Virus record (IMG/VR): IMGVR_UViG_3300025085_000236
Coordinates: 1-21,188 of that record
DNA length: 21,188 bases
Reading direction: 5' to 3' (one strand)
Origin: a virus
Shown here in pieces: positions 5,455 to 19,195 of this stretch (within the stretch, counting starts at the first letter, position 1; each line of letters starts with the position of its first letter). The notes under the pieces were generated by a model that did no database searches, had not been told where the DNA came from, and saw nothing but the letters and a program-made list of their open reading frames with translations. A program made the translations under genes and the position numbers.

Positions 5455-5620
5455 TCTTGAATCCTTTACTCATCATTTCACGTTTTTTCTTGAGACCTGC
5501 CTTCGCAGCACGTAACTGCAGTCGCATGTAATGGATCTCTTCATCAGTATACATCATCGGATTCTTATCCGCAAGCTTAATCGCTTTCTTTGCTACTTTA
5601 ATTGTGTCTTTAAACCTCAA
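5327..5620 (-). CDS. Basic helical hypothetical protein, TTG start, overlaps thyX
   Basis: A 97-residue protein whose start is TTG, supported by a near-perfect ribosome site (AGGAGG, 7 nt upstream) and by a TTGA overlap with the previous stop. The N-terminal 50 residues are helical and very basic ('FKDTIKVAKKAIKLADK', 'LRAAKAGLKKKREMMSKG'), compatible with nucleic-acid binding, though that is a guess. The C-terminal 45 residues are low in complexity (Pro/Glu/Gly) and are encoded within the thyX 5' region in a different frame, so that tail is probably shaped by thyX coding constraint. Confidence 0.65.
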   Translation of the reverse strand: MRFKDTIKVAKKAIKLADKNPMMYTDEEIHYMRLQLRAAKAGLKKKREMMSKGFKNEATTWVSPSSFYHPRSGEDDGVRSEGEQPEQPGQPESLGTP

Positions 5621-5820
5621 TGGGTTACCTCCTTTAAGTACTGGAGGAATGCTTCTTCAGCACCCTCTGTTGATTGATTGCCCTGAGATACCCAATGATG
5701 ACAGAATTCATATAGATGCTTTCCTGTTTTTAATTTCAAATAGTGTTTCAATTTAATAAACACATCAGCACGAAGAACCATACGTTCATCGCTGTATCTC
5801 CAATCAGATTCAATATCCAT
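5617..5820 (-). CDS. Hypothetical protein (67 aa)
   Basis: A 67-residue protein with no recognised domain. It looks like a small helical domain ('FIKLKHYLKLKTGKHLYEFC', 'GAEEAFLQYLKEV') with one Cys and several aromatic residues. It heads the leftward thyX operon. No ribosome site is visible before the ATG, and a late-type ATAAATA box lies 2 nt upstream, so translation may depend on a short leader made from the sigma70 promoter at 5844-5872. Its stop overlaps the next TTG start. Confidence 0.65.
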   Translation of the reverse strand: MDIESDWRYSDERMVLRADVFIKLKHYLKLKTGKHLYEFCHHWVSQGNQSTEGAEEAFLQYLKEVTH

Positions 5821-5821
5821 A

Positions 5822-5828
5822 TATTTAT
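5822..5828 (-). promoter_or_regulatory. Late-type box ATAAATA
   Basis: ATAAATA on the minus strand immediately before the ATG at 5820. It matches the T4-like late -10 core. Being so close to the start codon, it would yield a nearly leaderless transcript, which lowers confidence. Confidence 0.35.
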
Positions 5829-5843
5829 GGGTAGTATCGATCC

Positions 5844-5872
5844 ATCATAGCACAAAAAAAGGAGGGTCGCAA
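5844..5872 (-). promoter_or_regulatory. Sigma70-type promoter built into a terminator
   Basis: Minus strand: -35 TTGCGA (5867-5872), a 17-bp spacer, and -10 TATGAT (5844-5849) preceded by TGC. The -35 lies in the hairpin described at 5854-5878, and the spacer is its descending stem plus T run. It would start the thyX-phoH-gp33 operon. Confidence 0.6.
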
Positions 5873-7673: not shown

Positions 7674-7680
7674 TATTTAT
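7674..7680 (-). promoter_or_regulatory. Late-type box ATAAATA
   Basis: ATAAATA on the minus strand, overlapping the stop codon of the upstream membrane-protein gene and 23 nt before ATG 7651. It is well placed to drive the DUF6433-like operon late in infection. Confidence 0.55.
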
Positions 7681-7901
7681 TCTTCCTCAAGTTCCTCTTC
7701 ATCTACAAAGCGAACTGACAGAAGTTCTTCGTTGATCCATTGACCGTCTCCGTCTAACATTTCTGGATGGATGTTGTCTTCTTGCATACGATACATGTAC
7801 TCATGGAGTTTTTCGTTTGCTGTCCACCCAGCAATCACACCAACACATAAAAATATAAAGGAAACAGTTGCTGAGAAATAAACAATGGTTGCTTGCGTCA
7901 T
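7677..7901 (-). CDS. Small single-pass membrane protein (74 aa)
   Basis: A 74-residue protein with one clear transmembrane helix at the N-terminus (residues about 4-26, 'ATIVYFSATVSFIFLCVGVI'), then 'GWTANEKLHEYMYRMQED' and a very acidic end ('FVDEEELEEE'). ATG 7901 is chosen because GGAG lies 8 nt upstream; a GTG at 7937 is open but would overlap the preceding 45-aa gene. The protein is probably anchored with its acidic tail in the cytoplasm. The function is unknown. It follows glutaredoxin and a 45-aa basic protein in one transcription unit. Confidence 0.7.
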   Translation of the reverse strand: MTQATIVYFSATVSFIFLCVGVIAGWTANEKLHEYMYRMQEDNIHPEMLDGDGQWINEELLSVRFVDEEELEEE

Positions 7902-7915
7902 TGGTTCAACTCCAA

Positions 7916-8053
7916 TTAAATTTGTTTGCTGTCCCACAAAAGTTCAAAGTTGAAATAGACTCTTCGCTTTAGTAGGGTAAAAAACCTAGTGATAGCGATA
8001 CCTTTTGATGGGGGTTTCGCTTCTTCCTTTTCTGCCTTCGCCCCCCGAAGCAT
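7916..8053 (-). CDS. 45-aa basic protein
   Basis: A short gene filling the gap between glutaredoxin and the membrane protein. The 45-residue product begins 'MLRGAKAEKEEAKPPSKGIA' and continues 'ITRFFTLLKRRVYFNFELLW', a basic amphipathic segment that could lie on a membrane. A late-type box (8068-8074) and an AAGG ribosome site lie upstream. The stop is 14 nt before the next start, with that gene's ribosome site in between, which is the spacing expected for a real gene. No family is recognised. Confidence 0.55.
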   Translation of the reverse strand: MLRGAKAEKEEAKPPSKGIAITRFFTLLKRRVYFNFELLWDSKQI

Positions 8054-10982: not shown

Positions 10983-11189
10983 TTATTTATTGTAGAGATC
11001 TTCCAGTTTTTCTCTGGATAAATCTACATACATCAATTCCTCACCTGCTTGTGGTGCTTCTGGATGACGTGGTTTGGGTGTATTCATCTCTACTTTAATA
11101 GATTGAATATTAGCCCACATCATAGCGAAAGCACCACCAGCAATAAGAGCGAAGCATATGAAGTATAGTGTAACTTCAAATTGATTCAC
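10983..11189 (-). CDS. Small membrane protein after psbD (68 aa), GTG start
   Basis: A 68-residue protein starting with GTG in a GTGA overlap with the psbD stop; AGAGG lies 9 nt upstream, inside the psbD end. One transmembrane helix spans residues about 5-27 ('[20 protein letters not shown]'), followed by a Pro-rich linker ('[18 protein letters not shown]') and a short charged tail. Coupling to psbD means it is made with D2. It may therefore act in the thylakoid membrane, but no known photosystem subunit is recognisable. Confidence 0.7.
10984..10990 (-). promoter_or_regulatory. Late-type box ATAAATA
   Basis: ATAAATA on the minus strand, overlapping the end of the post-psbD membrane gene and 20 nt upstream of ATG 10964. 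It fits a late promoter for the 73-aa protein. Confidence 0.5.
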
Positions 11190-12253: not shown

Positions 12254-12484
12254 TTAGTTATTAAGTTCCAAAAAGAATTTTGTTTGATCTACTGGCAATT
12301 TTGATGCCGGATCGTAGATAGATGAATCGCCATAAGTTTTGTGGTCTTTGTATCCAACCATACGACCTTTCGTATTTTGAAGTGCTGCCATCATAGCAAT
12401 GATGAGAAAGATTGCTGGTGGTCCTATGATAAGGGCACCACCGATCACGTAGTAAGTAAGCAGTTCGATTAGGTCAGTAGACAT
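12254..12484 (-). CDS. Membrane protein between psbA and psbD (76 aa)
   Basis: A 76-residue protein with one long hydrophobic helix (residues about 8-35, 'LTYYVIGGALIIGPPAIFLI' continuing to 'AMMAAL'), broken by Gly-Pro-Pro, and a polar C-terminal half ending in Asn-Asn. Psb-like small subunits were considered, but none matches. Its position inside the psbA-psbD unit suggests a thylakoid location. A terminator (12501-12530) separates it from psbA, so it depends on read-through or on the weak promoter near 12533. Confidence 0.68.
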   Translation of the reverse strand: MSTDLIELLTYYVIGGALIIGPPAIFLIIAMMAALQNTKGRMVGYKDHKTYGDSSIYDPASKLPVDQTKFFLELNN

Positions 12485-15513: not shown

Positions 15514-15527
15514 GCCCCAACCACAGC

Positions 15528-15538
15528 ATAAATAAATA
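15528..15538 (+). promoter_or_regulatory. Tandem late-type boxes ATAAATA
   Basis: Two overlapping ATAAATA copies (15528-15534 and 15532-15538) on the plus strand, 22 nt before ATG 15560. They are the only plus-strand late boxes placed before a recognised gene and would drive the exported-protein trio. Confidence 0.6.
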
Positions 15539-15559: not shown

Positions 15560-16054
15560 ATGAAAAAGTTATTACCACTCGCAATGCTACTGATGACCGC
15601 TACTGCAGCGAATGCTGGCGGACTTGTATCAAAACAATCTTCTAGTGTTCAACTGACTGTTGAAGCTGCTAGATCAACTGCTGTAAGAGTAGGAAATTCT
15701 TATAGTATTTCAGGTAGTGGTATTAATACTACTGATGGCACTACGACAGGAACTATTTCTGCTGGCACCATTACTAGTGGCATCTATTCTCCTGGAACTA
15801 TCTCAGCAACTCAGGCAACTGATGGAAATGCTTTCACATATAGCACCTCGTTTACTCAAGGTGATGCAATCCCAACTGCTGCTCCTACTGTAGGAGATGT
15901 TCCTAACTTCAGTAATGTAACTTCTTACACTGCTGGTAGTGCTGGAAGTCTAGCAGGTACTGTAGCAACTTCAGGTGCTCTAACTGTAACCGCTGGTGGT
16001 CCTGGTACTACTGCAACTGGACAATTTGTTTCTGAGATCACTGTCATTGACTAA
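15560..16054 (+). CDS. Exported Ser/Thr/Gly-rich protein (164 aa)
   Basis: A 164-residue protein with a textbook signal peptide: 'MKKLLPLAMLLMTATAANA' with cleavage expected before Gly20. The mature part is low in complexity and beta-prone, rich in Thr, Ser, Gly and Ala ('GTISAGTITSGIYSPGTIS' and similar runs), and has no cysteine. Similar proteins occur in cyanophages and are sometimes called structural, but no function is known to me. It is first of three plus-strand genes, all with export signals, under tandem late-type boxes. It may act at the host envelope or on the virion surface. Confidence 0.75.
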   Translation: MKKLLPLAMLLMTATAANAGGLVSKQSSSVQLTVEAARSTAVRVGNSYSISGSGINTTDGTTTGTISAGTITSGIYSPGTISATQATDGNAFTYSTSFTQGDAIPTAAPTVGDVPNFSNVTSYTAGSAGSLAGTVATSGALTVTAGGPGTTATGQFVSEITVID

Positions 16055-16065
16055 GGAGATAGGTA

Positions 16066-16503
16066 ATGAATACTATGATTCGTTGGTCTGTGATGTCTGT
16101 GGTGGGTGCTTGTGTCACACTTGCTCCTGCCCTGGCGGTCCCCGTGGTCCCAAACTTCACACAGGGAAGTATGACGAGCAGGACAGAGACCACTCAGAAG
16201 ATAACTGAGACAATAAATTCAATGGATTATAACACAGGGTATCAGTATTCTGCTACTGGCACTGGTGTATCAGCATCTGGTACTTTATCACCACAACCAG
16301 GTGCTACTAATGTAACTATTAATGGAGTGACTTCATCATGGACTGGAGTAACAAGCAAACCCCAATTCACACAAACAGTACCAGGAGCAGCGTTTCAGTT
16401 CACAGAAACTTATCGCGGACCTGGTTTAAGCAATCAAACGATTATTCAAAGAGTAACCGAGGTCGAAAGCGCAACAGATACTACAAGTATCTTCTCCCAA
16501 TAA
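16066..16503 (+). CDS. Exported Thr/Ser-rich protein (145 aa)
   Basis: A 145-residue protein with a strong ribosome site (AAGGAG, 7 nt before ATG) and a signal peptide ('MIRWSVMSVVGACVTLAPAL', cleavage likely after 'ALA' at 24). The mature part contains 'FTQGSMTSRTETTQKITETI', 'YNTGYQYSATGTGVSASGT' and 'FQFTETYRGPGLSNQTIIQR', with a beta-rich, Thr/Gln/Ser composition like the previous gene. The last 166 nt are overlapped by the next gene in another frame. The function is unknown; location outside the cytoplasm or in the envelope is inferred from the signal. Confidence 0.74.
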   Translation: MNTMIRWSVMSVVGACVTLAPALAVPVVPNFTQGSMTSRTETTQKITETINSMDYNTGYQYSATGTGVSASGTLSPQPGATNVTINGVTSSWTGVTSKPQFTQTVPGAAFQFTETYRGPGLSNQTIIQRVTEVESATDTTSIFSQ

Positions 16504-17249
16504 CATTAATATTTGCTAATCCTTCTTATGCTGAAACTGTTGGTGGTGTCTCTGCTACTGCTAATCCTGTGGCTAATAGTTCAGGCTCCGTTACAAACCA
16601 AGCTATACAAGTCCTTCAGGGACCATATATTACAAACACATACGGAGGTGGTATACAATGTCAGGGTCCCACTCGCAACTTTACCCCCTATGTAACAGGA
16701 AGTGTCTCTGCTTCTAAACCATACGAACCTTTCTACGATGACCCAGTATATGATGTCACTGATAACTTTGGGGACTTCGATGATGATGGGAAACCTATTG
16801 GTGATGGAAGATTAGATAATCCTGGTGATGTTTTGTTCACTAAAAAAACTAGAACAGGACAAAAAGATAACTATAGTCTAGGTCTAGGGTTCTCTATGAC
16901 ATGGAGTACACCTACAGATAAGAAATTACAAGATCTTTGTAAGGAAGCAGCATCTTCTAACATTGAGATGATGCAACAAATAACTGCCAATAAAAGATTG
17001 GACTTTGAGATTGCAAGACTTAAGAATTGTGGTGAGTTAAAGTTAAAAGGAATTCAATTCCATCCCAAGAGTCCTTACTATAAAGTATGTGCTGATGTGT
17101 TGGTAAACAATCCTCCAGGACATAGACATCCACACTATCATAACATCCCTAGCGTTTCTTCTTCCTCCTCGGAAAGACAGAACGAATCTCCTTCACAGCA
17201 TGATTCATCTGACGCTGCTCTGCTAGGCGCTCCCCTACAGACAAAATAG
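16338..17249 (+). CDS. Exported protein with unresolved start
   Basis: A protein of up to 303 residues. The recognisable part starts with a signal-like segment at residues 43-65 (basic 'RKRNRYYK', hydrophobic 'YLLPITLIFA', cleavage after 'NPSYA'). The mature domain follows: 'ETVGGVSATANPVANSSGS', 'QVLQGPYITNTYGGGIQC', a helix 'RLDFEIARLKNCGELKL', 'FHPKSPYYKVCADVLVNNPP' and a His-rich segment. The only possible ATG/GTG/TTG start is 16338, which places 42 odd Ser/Arg-rich residues before the signal and overlaps the previous gene by 166 nt. The last 101 nt overlap a converging gene, giving a low-complexity tail. Confidence 0.65.
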   Translation: MDWSNKQTPIHTNSTRSSVSVHRNLSRTWFKQSNDYSKSNRGRKRNRYYKYLLPITLIFANPSYAETVGGVSATANPVANSSGSVTNQAIQVLQGPYITNTYGGGIQCQGPTRNFTPYVTGSVSASKPYEPFYDDPVYDVTDNFGDFDDDGKPIGDGRLDNPGDVLFTKKTRTGQKDNYSLGLGFSMTWSTPTDKKLQDLCKEAASSNIEMMQQITANKRLDFEIARLKNCGELKLKGIQFHPKSPYYKVCADVLVNNPPGHRHPHYHNIPSVSSSSSERQNESPSQHDSSDAALLGAPLQTK

Positions 17250-17958
17250 GAGGTTTCTTACCACGTAAAGTAGAAATCTTTTTCATAACTTTCTTGACCG
17301 TTGGTTTGACTGCTTTCAATAGTATGTCTGCCAGCGGTTTTGCTAATAGTGCTGATGATGTAGCGATGACAGCAATACCACCTACCTGCATTACCTGTCC
17401 ACCACTAGGTAGACCAGCAAGAATTTGTGTAGGTAAAGGAACTGGATCTGTTAGTTGAACACATGTATTATCGATGAGTTTGTATCCAGTAACTATCTTT
17501 CTAAATCCTTCTACATATGTTCCAGCAGGTTCTTGTGCCTGCTGTACTTTAGTAGGACATTCAACATTAGCAGTAGATGGTGGAGGTGATGGTGTGTCTG
17601 TTTTTGTTTCTGGTGGTGTAGGTTTATCTGGTGTTCTGTTATCCACCTGAGGTGGACCAGTCATAATCATCTGGTTTGGTTCAAAAGAAAGAGGATTAAA
17701 ATTGGGAACACCAGAATCGCAATACGTAACCAAACCATTGGTATCATCCTCTCTTAATTGATTATTTTTAGCACTATTAGTTTCAGTCGCCTCAACACAT
17801 CCTGGTATATTAACCACAGGCACACCAATATTCACAACTACTGGAGCTGCTATTGGTAAGGAGGTTGAAGTGTTATTAAAGTCATAGGTGGGTATAGTAT
17901 TAATCTGAATATCTTTAATACTAATATCTCCACCTGTAATAATAGGTATCTCAGGCAT
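17149..17958 (-). CDS. Proline-rich membrane/structural protein (269 aa)
   Basis: A 269-residue protein. The N-terminal third is Ile/Val/Thr-rich ('IPIITGGDISIKDIQINTIP'), then a proline/threonine linker (about 107-128, 'TPDKPTPPETKTDTPSPPPS'), a domain with two cysteines, a transmembrane helix near residues 190-215 ('VGGIAVIATSSALLAKPLAD') and a very basic tail ending 'PRRKKKR'. This suggests a membrane-anchored or virion-associated protein with a cytoplasmic basic end. Similar proteins occur in cyanophage structural regions. Its 3' end overlaps the converging plus-strand gene by 101 nt. Confidence 0.68.
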   Translation of the reverse strand: MPEIPIITGGDISIKDIQINTIPTYDFNNTSTSLPIAAPVVVNIGVPVVNIPGCVEATETNSAKNNQLREDDTNGLVTYCDSGVPNFNPLSFEPNQMIMTGPPQVDNRTPDKPTPPETKTDTPSPPPSTANVECPTKVQQAQEPAGTYVEGFRKIVTGYKLIDNTCVQLTDPVPLPTQILAGLPSGGQVMQVGGIAVIATSSALLAKPLADILLKAVKPTVKKVMKKISTLRGKKPPILSVGERLAEQRQMNHAVKEIRSVFPRRKKKR

Positions 17959-18071
17959 CAGTCTTCAAACATTTTAAAAATTCCTGTCCAAATAGAATGA
18001 AAGAATACATATAAGAAAAATGTTTCTGTCGCTTCTTTCTTCTGTTGCTTCTTATAAGTCGTCTGAGCCAT
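17958..18071 (-). CDS. 37-aa small protein
   Basis: A 37-residue product with a good ribosome site (GAGG, 7 nt before ATG 18071) and a stop that overlaps the next start (TGATG). It has a Lys/Gln-rich N-terminus ('MAQTTYKKQQKKEATE') and an aromatic hydrophobic end ('TFFLYVFFHSIWTGIFKMFE') that could insert into or lie along a membrane. It is basic-then-hydrophobic, as in some small lysis or membrane-active proteins, but nothing specific supports that role. Transcribed with the downstream 269-aa protein. Confidence 0.62.
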   Translation of the reverse strand: MAQTTYKKQQKKEATETFFLYVFFHSIWTGIFKMFED

Positions 18072-18092
18072 AATGTTTCCTCAATACTTAAC

Positions 18093-18099
18093 TATTTAA
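18093..18099 (-). promoter_or_regulatory. Late-type box TTAAATA
   Basis: A TTAAATA variant on the minus strand, overlapping the stop of the 189-aa gene and 22 nt before ATG 18071. The spacing is the same as at other late-type boxes in the window. Confidence 0.4.
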
Positions 18100-18665
18100 C
18101 AATCATTAAACACGCTTCCAACTTGAGAACCAAGTGATGATCCTGCTTTCTGTCCTAGGAGCAATGCCCATCCACCTGCCAACCAACCCACGTAGGGGAT
18201 GCTAGCAAGGGCAGGAACAGCAACTCCAGCAGCAATAGCACTACCTGCCATTGCACCTTGTGAACGTGCTCCAGCGTCCGCCACGATGCACTCGATTTCT
18301 TTCGCAGACTTTCCCTGCTCGTCAGTTGCACCTCCTAGATTCCTGGTGCCTTCACGGGTATATTGATCACGGCGGTACTCATTTCTAATTTCAGATCCGC
18401 CACCAAACAATCCTCTCCTCTCTTTGTCAACATCTAAAGACCTTTCAGACTCCAAAATCTTAGGATCGTCAGCACGGAATTCAATCTCATAACCATCCTT
18501 ACCTGCCTTAATCCTGTAAGAAGAATAAGGACCACGGGGGATGTGAAATGTAGGAGGTTGGAGCACAGGTTCAGGTTCCTGCCTGAAAACATATCCAAGC
18601 AGACCTATATGTGCTACAACAAATACTCCGCCAACTGAAGCGGCGACGATCTTAAGTTTATTCAT
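18096..18665 (-). CDS. Membrane/structural protein (189 aa)
   Basis: A 189-residue protein. A hydrophobic N-terminal helix (residues 5-27, 'KIVAASVGGVFVVAHIGLLG') acts as anchor or uncleaved signal, followed by a charged central region ('GLFGGGSEIRNEYRRDQYTR'). The C-terminal 55 residues are Gly/Ala-rich and hydrophobic ('GAMAGSAIAAGVAVPALASI', 'GWLAGGWALLLGQKAGSSLG') with small-residue spacing as in glycine-zipper membrane segments. Cysteines are at 'IECIV' and the last residue. It could be a virion protein that inserts into membranes during infection. No known family is assigned. Confidence 0.66.
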   Translation of the reverse strand: MNKLKIVAASVGGVFVVAHIGLLGYVFRQEPEPVLQPPTFHIPRGPYSSYRIKAGKDGYEIEFRADDPKILESERSLDVDKERRGLFGGGSEIRNEYRRDQYTREGTRNLGGATDEQGKSAKEIECIVADAGARSQGAMAGSAIAAGVAVPALASIPYVGWLAGGWALLLGQKAGSSLGSQVGSVFNDC

Positions 18666-18667
18666 GG

Positions 18668-18892
18668 TTAGAATGGCATAGAGGGACCAGTTACTTCAGG
18701 CATCTTAGGCATAGCAGCATTTACCATTCCTGGTAGTGCTTCTGTGATTGCTTCGGTGATAGCAGCAGTTGCTTTCTCCCTAGCACCTTCGATTAATGTA
18801 TCCTTTTGAACGTAAAGATAAGCACCACCCCCTAAGACAGATAAAGAAACTAGACCAGACAATAAAGCAACTACATTAATCAATTTTTGCAT
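18668..18892 (-). CDS. Small membrane protein (74 aa)
   Basis: A 74-residue protein starting 'MQKLINVVALLSGLVSLSVL', one transmembrane helix (residues 5-28), then an amphipathic Ala/Glu helix ('GAREKATAAITEAITEAL') and a Pro/Met-rich end. ATG 18892 is chosen over the longer open frame because GGAG lies 7 nt upstream; it overlaps the upstream gene by 17 nt. The role is unknown. It sits with other membrane proteins in a block preceding the 189- and 269-aa proteins. Confidence 0.68.
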   Translation of the reverse strand: MQKLINVVALLSGLVSLSVLGGGAYLYVQKDTLIEGAREKATAAITEAITEALPGMVNAAMPKMPEVTGPSMPF

Positions 18893-19166
18893 CTTTCTTC
18901 TCCAATGTAGGTGCTTCCTTTGATTCATCCTTCTTCTTAGAAGGCATGACACCAAATGTAGCTAATGTTCCAGTAAAAACACTGGCAATAAAAGTTGGAT
19001 CGATATTTTTTTGAGGAACACCAGGAACAGTTACATAATTAAGGGTCAGAATTGCTGCTGACCATCCAAGAATAATAACTCGGACGAGAGTTGATACACC
19101 CTCATCCGCCCACTCAAATTTGTTTTCCTTTTTGGCTTCCTCTTTCTTCTTTGGATTTGATTCCAT
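18876..19166 (-). CDS. Two-helix membrane protein, holin-like
   Basis: A 96-residue protein with a Lys/Glu-rich N-terminus ('ESNPKKKEEAKKENKFEW'), two hydrophobic segments (about 25-47, 'STLVRVIILGWSAAILTLNY', and 56-74, 'PTFIASVFTGTLATFGVM') and a charged Lys-rich C-terminus. Size and layout (two helices, short loop, charged tail) are those of small phage holins, but also of other membrane proteins, and no sequence signature was recognised. A late-type box (19189-19195) lies 23 nt upstream, which fits late expression. Confidence 0.65.
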   Translation of the reverse strand: MESNPKKKEEAKKENKFEWADEGVSTLVRVIILGWSAAILTLNYVTVPGVPQKNIDPTFIASVFTGTLATFGVMPSKKKDESKEAPTLEKKDAKID

Positions 19167-19188: not shown

Positions 19189-19195
19189 TATTTAT
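19189..19195 (-). promoter_or_regulatory. Late-type box ATAAATA
   Basis: ATAAATA on the minus strand, at the stop codon of the 89-aa gene and 23 nt before ATG 19166. It would drive the membrane-protein block. Confidence 0.5.

Follow-up and report, generated by a model that had tools for sequence, protein, structure and literature searches.

The described phage genes closest to the locus analysed here are those of the two-component spanins (lambda Rz/Rz1, T7 18.5/18.7, P2 LysB/LysC), late exported pairs encoded by overlapping, out-of-frame genes, and those of the class II (two-TM) holins. In T7, the holin 17.5 and the spanins 18.5/18.7 are encoded in the interval between the tail fibre and the terminase. 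No publication naming a holin or outer-membrane lysis proteins of a marine cyanophage was found in the literature searched. A 2018 survey recorded 20 Prochlorococcus/Synechococcus phages without an identifiable spanin, and lists P-SSP7, Syn1, Syn9, S-SM1, S-SM2, P-SSM2/4/7 and P-HM1/2, among others, as spanin-less (PMC6139136). Its authors suggested that the host outer membrane may be fragile, and that an outer-membrane protein could serve as o-spanin.

The locus belongs to a gene cluster that has been reported before. T4-GC 218, 219, 234, 235 and 237 cluster in 15 of 16 cyanophages, and functional reasons for this clustering were proposed (Sullivan 2010, PMC3037559); it is the same cassette. 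The portions of that paper considered here give it no function, do not mention a nested start, a T7-like counterpart or a host operon, and suggest mobility via a 'plasmid stability' protein. The preliminary description of this DNA, which spoke of an undescribed system, was therefore half right, the cassette having been on record since 2010 with no function attached.

The window, i.e. the whole stretch of 21,188 nucleotides, is a fragment of a T4-like cyanophage (Kyanoviridae), with about 89-90% identity to S-CAM4 and ACG-2014e/j across most of its length. The features of the locus are collected in Table 1. Three plus-strand open reading frames with exported products, called A, B and C below, were confirmed between minus-strand blocks, and the beta-rich composition ascribed to them is supported. 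They are consecutive, as had been claimed, with the reservation that C does not simply follow B, its ATG (16338) lying inside B. Profile comparison identifies A and B as paralogs (96.4%, E 1.4e-9, over a region that takes in the signal peptides). With tblastn, 366, 406 and 421 phage records were matched by A, B and C respectively, nearly all named cyanophages; among marine cyanophages, nearly all of the T4-like and many of the T7-like ones have the cassette. The PHROG families of the three proteins (564, 650 and 848/1755) have no function assigned.

Table 1. Features of the cassette in the window.
Feature	Position	Strand	Description
Late promoter motifs	15527..15538	+	two overlapping T4-type motifs, NATAAATA, 22 bases upstream of A
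Gene A	15560..16054	+	164 aa, exported, Thr/Ser/Gly-rich; phrog_564, T4-GC237; paralog of B; signal peptide likely 15560-15616
Gene B	16066..16503	+	145 aa, exported, predicted all-beta; phrog_650, Pfam DUF6322, T4-GC236; signal peptide likely 16066-16137
Gene C	16338..17249	+	303 aa precursor; phrog_848/1755, T4-GC235; presequence 16338-16532
Gene C, mature part			beta region, helix and four conserved Cys
B/C overlap	16338..16503	+	166 nt, out of frame; ATG of C nested in B
G234	17149..17958	-	phrog_570, T4-GC234; Pro-rich, hydrophobic segment near C-terminus
G219	18096..18665	-	phrog_605, T4-GC219; N-terminal membrane segment and C-terminal hydrophobic region
G414	18668..18892	-	phrog_568; small, single-TM, label 'plasmid stability'
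G218	18876..19166	-	Pfam DUF6450, phrog_721, T4-GC218; small, two-TM, Lys-rich ends, holin-like
Late promoter motif	19189..19195	-	ATAAATA, upstream of G218

Export signals of the Sec type were recognised in all three proteins, as the preliminary description had proposed, their cleavage being deduced from motifs. The signal peptides of A (MKKLLPLAMLLMTATAANA, then cleavage before GG) and B (MNTMIRWSVMSVVGACVTLAPALA, then cleavage before VP) are textbook examples. That of C has a hydrophobic core and an AxA site (YLLPITLIFANPSYA, then E) after an unusually long basic N-region, and the Ala at the cleavage site is invariant among 64 sequences. The B proteins of podoviruses begin with MKKLLLLLLLASPAAA, then Q, so that the type of signal is kept while its sequence has diverged; the B homolog of P-SSP7 is SignalP-positive according to its depositors. 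These signals are not an isolated oddity of the locus, since membrane proteins are predicted for the four convergent genes at 17149-19166 as well. A lipobox-like motif was present in 2 of 46 B proteins and in none of 64 C proteins, and C is not predicted to carry an N-terminal TM anchor, a short h-region being followed by the AxA site. A reading of B as a lipoprotein, from the GAC in the window, was rejected because the Cys is not conserved. After the signal, 63 of the 64 C proteins have four Cys, which may confer a capacity for disulfides.

Structure models were poor, with pLDDT of 49 (C, AlphaFold2) and 65, and no claim on the fold of C is based on its model. The low-confidence model of B is all-beta with long strands. 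It gave no significant PDB match in a fold search (best PDB E 5e-3, TM ~0.2), and in BFVD its best-supported matches were cyanophage homologs or unnamed proteins; sequence searches of the PDB gave no matches. Among the weak fold hits of this model were beta-barrel pore-formers (lysenin, aerolysin, protective antigen), a likeness that two long strands account for, that falls short of significance and serves as an idea only.

The late promoter placed before A by the preliminary description is supported by the overlapping NATAAATA motifs, and by an [AC]TAAATA at most 50 nt upstream of A in 65 of 74 T4-like loci (background 1.1%). A late motif also lies at most 90 nt upstream of G218, on the other strand, in 56 of 63 loci (background 2%), and the window as a whole has 14 late motifs where 4.7 are expected. 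Judged by these motifs near A and near G218, both arms of the T4-like cassette look late, and late motifs on both arms are a new observation.

The start of C lies in the -1 frame of B. This nested ATG is kept in 83 of 86 T4-like and 81 of 83 T7-like loci (164/169 in total; the loci are mutually related and the counts not independent). Wherever it is kept, the frame of C is open across the overlap, compared to 7.5% (T4-like) and 1.3% (T7-like) of synonymous reshuffles of B. In T4-like phages the B residue spanning the ATG varies between Ser, Thr, Lys, Gln and Arg, its codon invariably ending in A; all 47 Ser codons at this place are TCA, while A-ending Ser codons make up 24% of those in B genes overall. 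In the T7-like group, 80 of the 81 loci that keep the ATG have Ser TCA (background 31%). Because the residue of B changes at a constant third base and two phage families agree, we regard the nested start as secure. One locus (L030, ~5514-5870) offers a test provided by nature: B and C are parted by an insertion and C has acquired a new ATG leading into a canonical signal peptide of 29 residues; the insert has no Rfam intron match at the gathering threshold. The C protein of P-SCSP1u has an ordinary short signal peptide. A frameshift fusion of B and C was rejected, since the nested ATG is conserved and both L030 and P-SCSP1u use separate canonical starts.

In T4-like phages, A-B-C is convergent with G234, G219, G414 and G218, all predicted membrane proteins. 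In most of these phages G218 stands on the arm opposite to A-B-C. The 3′ ends of C and G234 overlap by ~100 nt (window 17149-17249). A 41 kb contig of a 1.7 Mb genome carries G218-A-B-C on one strand (L221, 3670-5468), an order intermediate between the T4-like and T7-like ones. The 'plasmid stability protein' label of G414 finds no support in Pfam, and the mobility or pseudolysogeny arguments built on it (PMC3037559, PMC9602691) look weak. Elsewhere in the window, three small single-TM proteins are encoded on the minus strand near psbA/psbD (7677-7937, 10983-11189 and 12254-12484).

In T7-like cyanophages the genes run [tail fibre]-[phrog_9426]-G218-B-C-[terminase small subunit, HNH, terminase large subunit]. 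G218 was upstream of B, with G218-B-C consecutive, in all 75 T7-like loci where G218 and B were both found, and in KBS-P-1A, SS120-1, P-SSP10, P-SSP7 and MedDCM-S45-C4 the block is flanked by tail fibre and small terminase. In the MPP-C phage P-SCSP1u, a G218-B-C block was matched by position and signal/TM features, on the terminase strand. Preceding G218 is phrog_9426, which shows a weak relationship to G234. That B and C of T7-like cyanophages follow a phage-specific two-TM DUF6450 protein, in most cases within the interval from tail fibre to terminase, is a new observation. In P-SSP7, the products flagged for TM segments or by SignalP in the depositor annotation are, besides Hli and PsbA, only 042, 043 (G218) and 044 (B); our own scan adds weak single hits only, mostly large soluble proteins. 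For 043, two TM segments were counted by the depositors with TMHMM, and one passed the threshold in our scan.

Syn5 has none of A, B, C and G218, and its horn proteins were rejected as homologs for this reason. Between its tail fibre and terminase it encodes gp47, which is small and has a hydrophobic segment at the N-terminus; gp47 and gp48 (L259, 36392-36835), both with hydrophobic segments, are candidate lysis genes unrelated to G218. Syn5 gp48 has phrog_2738 in common with KBS-P-1A, a 56-aa hydrophobic protein that is a further candidate for the holin of some T7-like phages.

We propose that the cassette may be a late lysis module, with the DUF6450 protein as holin and A, B and C as a non-canonical system for breaching the outer envelope, a reading to which we give slightly less than even credence. 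G218, with its two TM segments and charged ends, would be a holin in the inner membrane; B and C, together with the B paralog A in T4-like phages, would pass through Sec to the periplasm and would fold there as beta-rich, disulfide-containing proteins. At lysis these would act on the outer envelope, for instance as beta structures assembled within the outer membrane or on its surface, and would stand in for the missing spanins. The case rests on position and elimination: G218-B-C occupies the place of the T7 holin and spanins in T7-like genomes, and recurs in two unrelated phage families; Syn5, which has no such block, has gp47 in that place. What the sequence itself offers are the export signals and late motifs, the start of C inside B, the conserved cysteines, the link with G218, a position syntenic with the T7 lysis locus, and an ancestry shared with host exported proteins (see below); from these we infer that G218 acts as a holin, that A/B/C act on the outer membrane, and each step of the mechanism. 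The nested gene, the A/B paralogy, the holin-like partner, the T7-like homologs and the host operon were overlooked in the preliminary description, and they shift the balance towards lysis.

Compared to class II holins, G218 is likewise small, with two TM segments, Lys-rich termini and a late motif, and it is a small TM protein, late by motif, near putative lysis genes; unlike them, it matches only unnamed PHROGs and DUF6450 and no named holin family. It is a putative holin by topology and position. The nested, -1 frame layout of B and C resembles that of overlapped spanin genes (PMC6139136), and the pair shares with two-component spanins a linked holin-like gene and periplasmic cysteines. B and C differ in having no lipobox, no predicted inner-membrane anchor and beta-rich mature parts, and the cassette differs in its extra paralog A, its homologs in host genomes and the lack of sequence similarity. 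Since lipobox and membrane anchor are missing, B and C cannot be classed as spanins, and the proposal is that they work like spanins.

Several observations stand against a lysis function. A, B, C and G218 show no sequence similarity to known holins or spanins, and there is no endolysin gene within the cassette. The structure models are poor, G218 of most T4-like phages stands on the arm away from A-B-C, and phrog_2738 competes with it as holin candidate. Neither C nor a G218 match above the cut-off was found in the spanin-less S-PM2 and Syn5, or in S-SZBM1 and S-CREM2. Host genomes have homologs of A, B, C and G234 without G218, which means that the exported proteins can have a non-lytic role. 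Still more tentative is the wider proposal that a new module, common to unrelated T4-like and T7-like phages, serves the 'spanin-less' marine cyanophages to breach the outer membrane; in it, a phage holin would be combined with a nested exported pair, beta-rich and disulfide-containing, related to a host surface operon.

The host homologs lead to the main rival of the lysis module, remodelling of the host surface: the phage version of a picocyanobacterial operon for exported proteins would coat or change the cell surface late in infection, and would alter adhesion, aggregation, re-adsorption of progeny to debris, or grazing. In freshwater Synechococcaceae contigs with host flanks, genome scans and whole-genome searches found A-B-C in this order and a G234-like gene convergent with it; these contigs lack G218 and the overlap of B with C. 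The identical A-B-C order is seen in L179 and L181, and phrog_9426 is matched by a G234-like protein from a host (E 2e-4). Of 299 genomes in the order, 20 have more distant homologs of C; among these 20, G004 and G282 at least look like phage contigs. Many of the C homologs sit amid groups of small exported proteins. In an hhalign comparison, the C proteins of phage and host were aligned with 99.6% probability (E 4e-24), and both have the four cysteines. These comparisons indicate that A, B and C share ancestry with an operon of exported picocyanobacterial proteins, which had not been reported before; the phage cassette differs from that operon by the B/C overlap, the presence of G218 and fewer exported members. 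Because such operons exist, the idea of the preliminary description that the proteins decorate the surface is kept as a possible function, and the long strands of the all-beta model of B would fit it. Against surface remodelling, the late motifs leave a short time for any benefit before the cell lyses, and it would leave unexplained why the genes are so tightly linked, at the T7 lysis locus, to one for a two-TM protein specific to phages. On balance we consider it rather unlikely.

The picocyanobacterial operons (L213, L211, L212, L216, L250-L258) have about 5-8 small exported proteins around the C homolog, several of which carry a Phe-rich motif at the end; no function or family name was found for these operons. 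Close C homologs in assemblies filed as Nonlabens, Prochlorococcus single cells, Lewinella, Formosa and Euryarchaeota MAGs (L175, L177, L172-L174) look like cyanophage sequence in host assemblies.

A role in the virion, either as structural proteins with a hydrophobic N-terminus that does not serve as a signal, or as exported proteins binding released virions, would agree with the late motifs and with the tail-fibre genes that adjoin the T7-like homologs; the consistent Sec-type signals and the four conserved Cys speak against it. S-SM1 has all the genes, and its virion-proteome paper, in the portions considered, still calls T4-GC 218/219/234/235/237 hypothetical, its table allowing at most one of them as structural (PMC3037559). 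This weakly disfavours the structural reading raised by the preliminary description, and we judge a virion role unlikely. The virion proteomes of S-SZBM1 and S-CREM2 were rejected as negative evidence, being uninformative because these phages are without C, as was a GenBank 'hypothetical' label as an argument against a virion location, the known virion protein T4-GC969 being labelled likewise. Superinfection-blocking proteins are normally made early. Superinfection exclusion, also suggested earlier, here by periplasmic or outer-membrane proteins that block a receptor, would suit exported proteins whose genes are conserved across phages with common hosts; since the genes look late by the motifs of A and G218, and given the linkage to a holin-like gene and the absence of a PADLOC match, we hold it to be more improbable still. 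An anti-defence role was rejected, PADLOC giving no match.

Marine cyanophages kill a large share of ocean picocyanobacteria. The cassette provides named genes with which the idea of a fragile outer membrane can be tested, and holds a deeply conserved pair of overlapping genes, the second of which is often annotated with a wrong start codon. If the lysis module proposed here is real, these phages would share a surface operon with their hosts and would use it for lysis.
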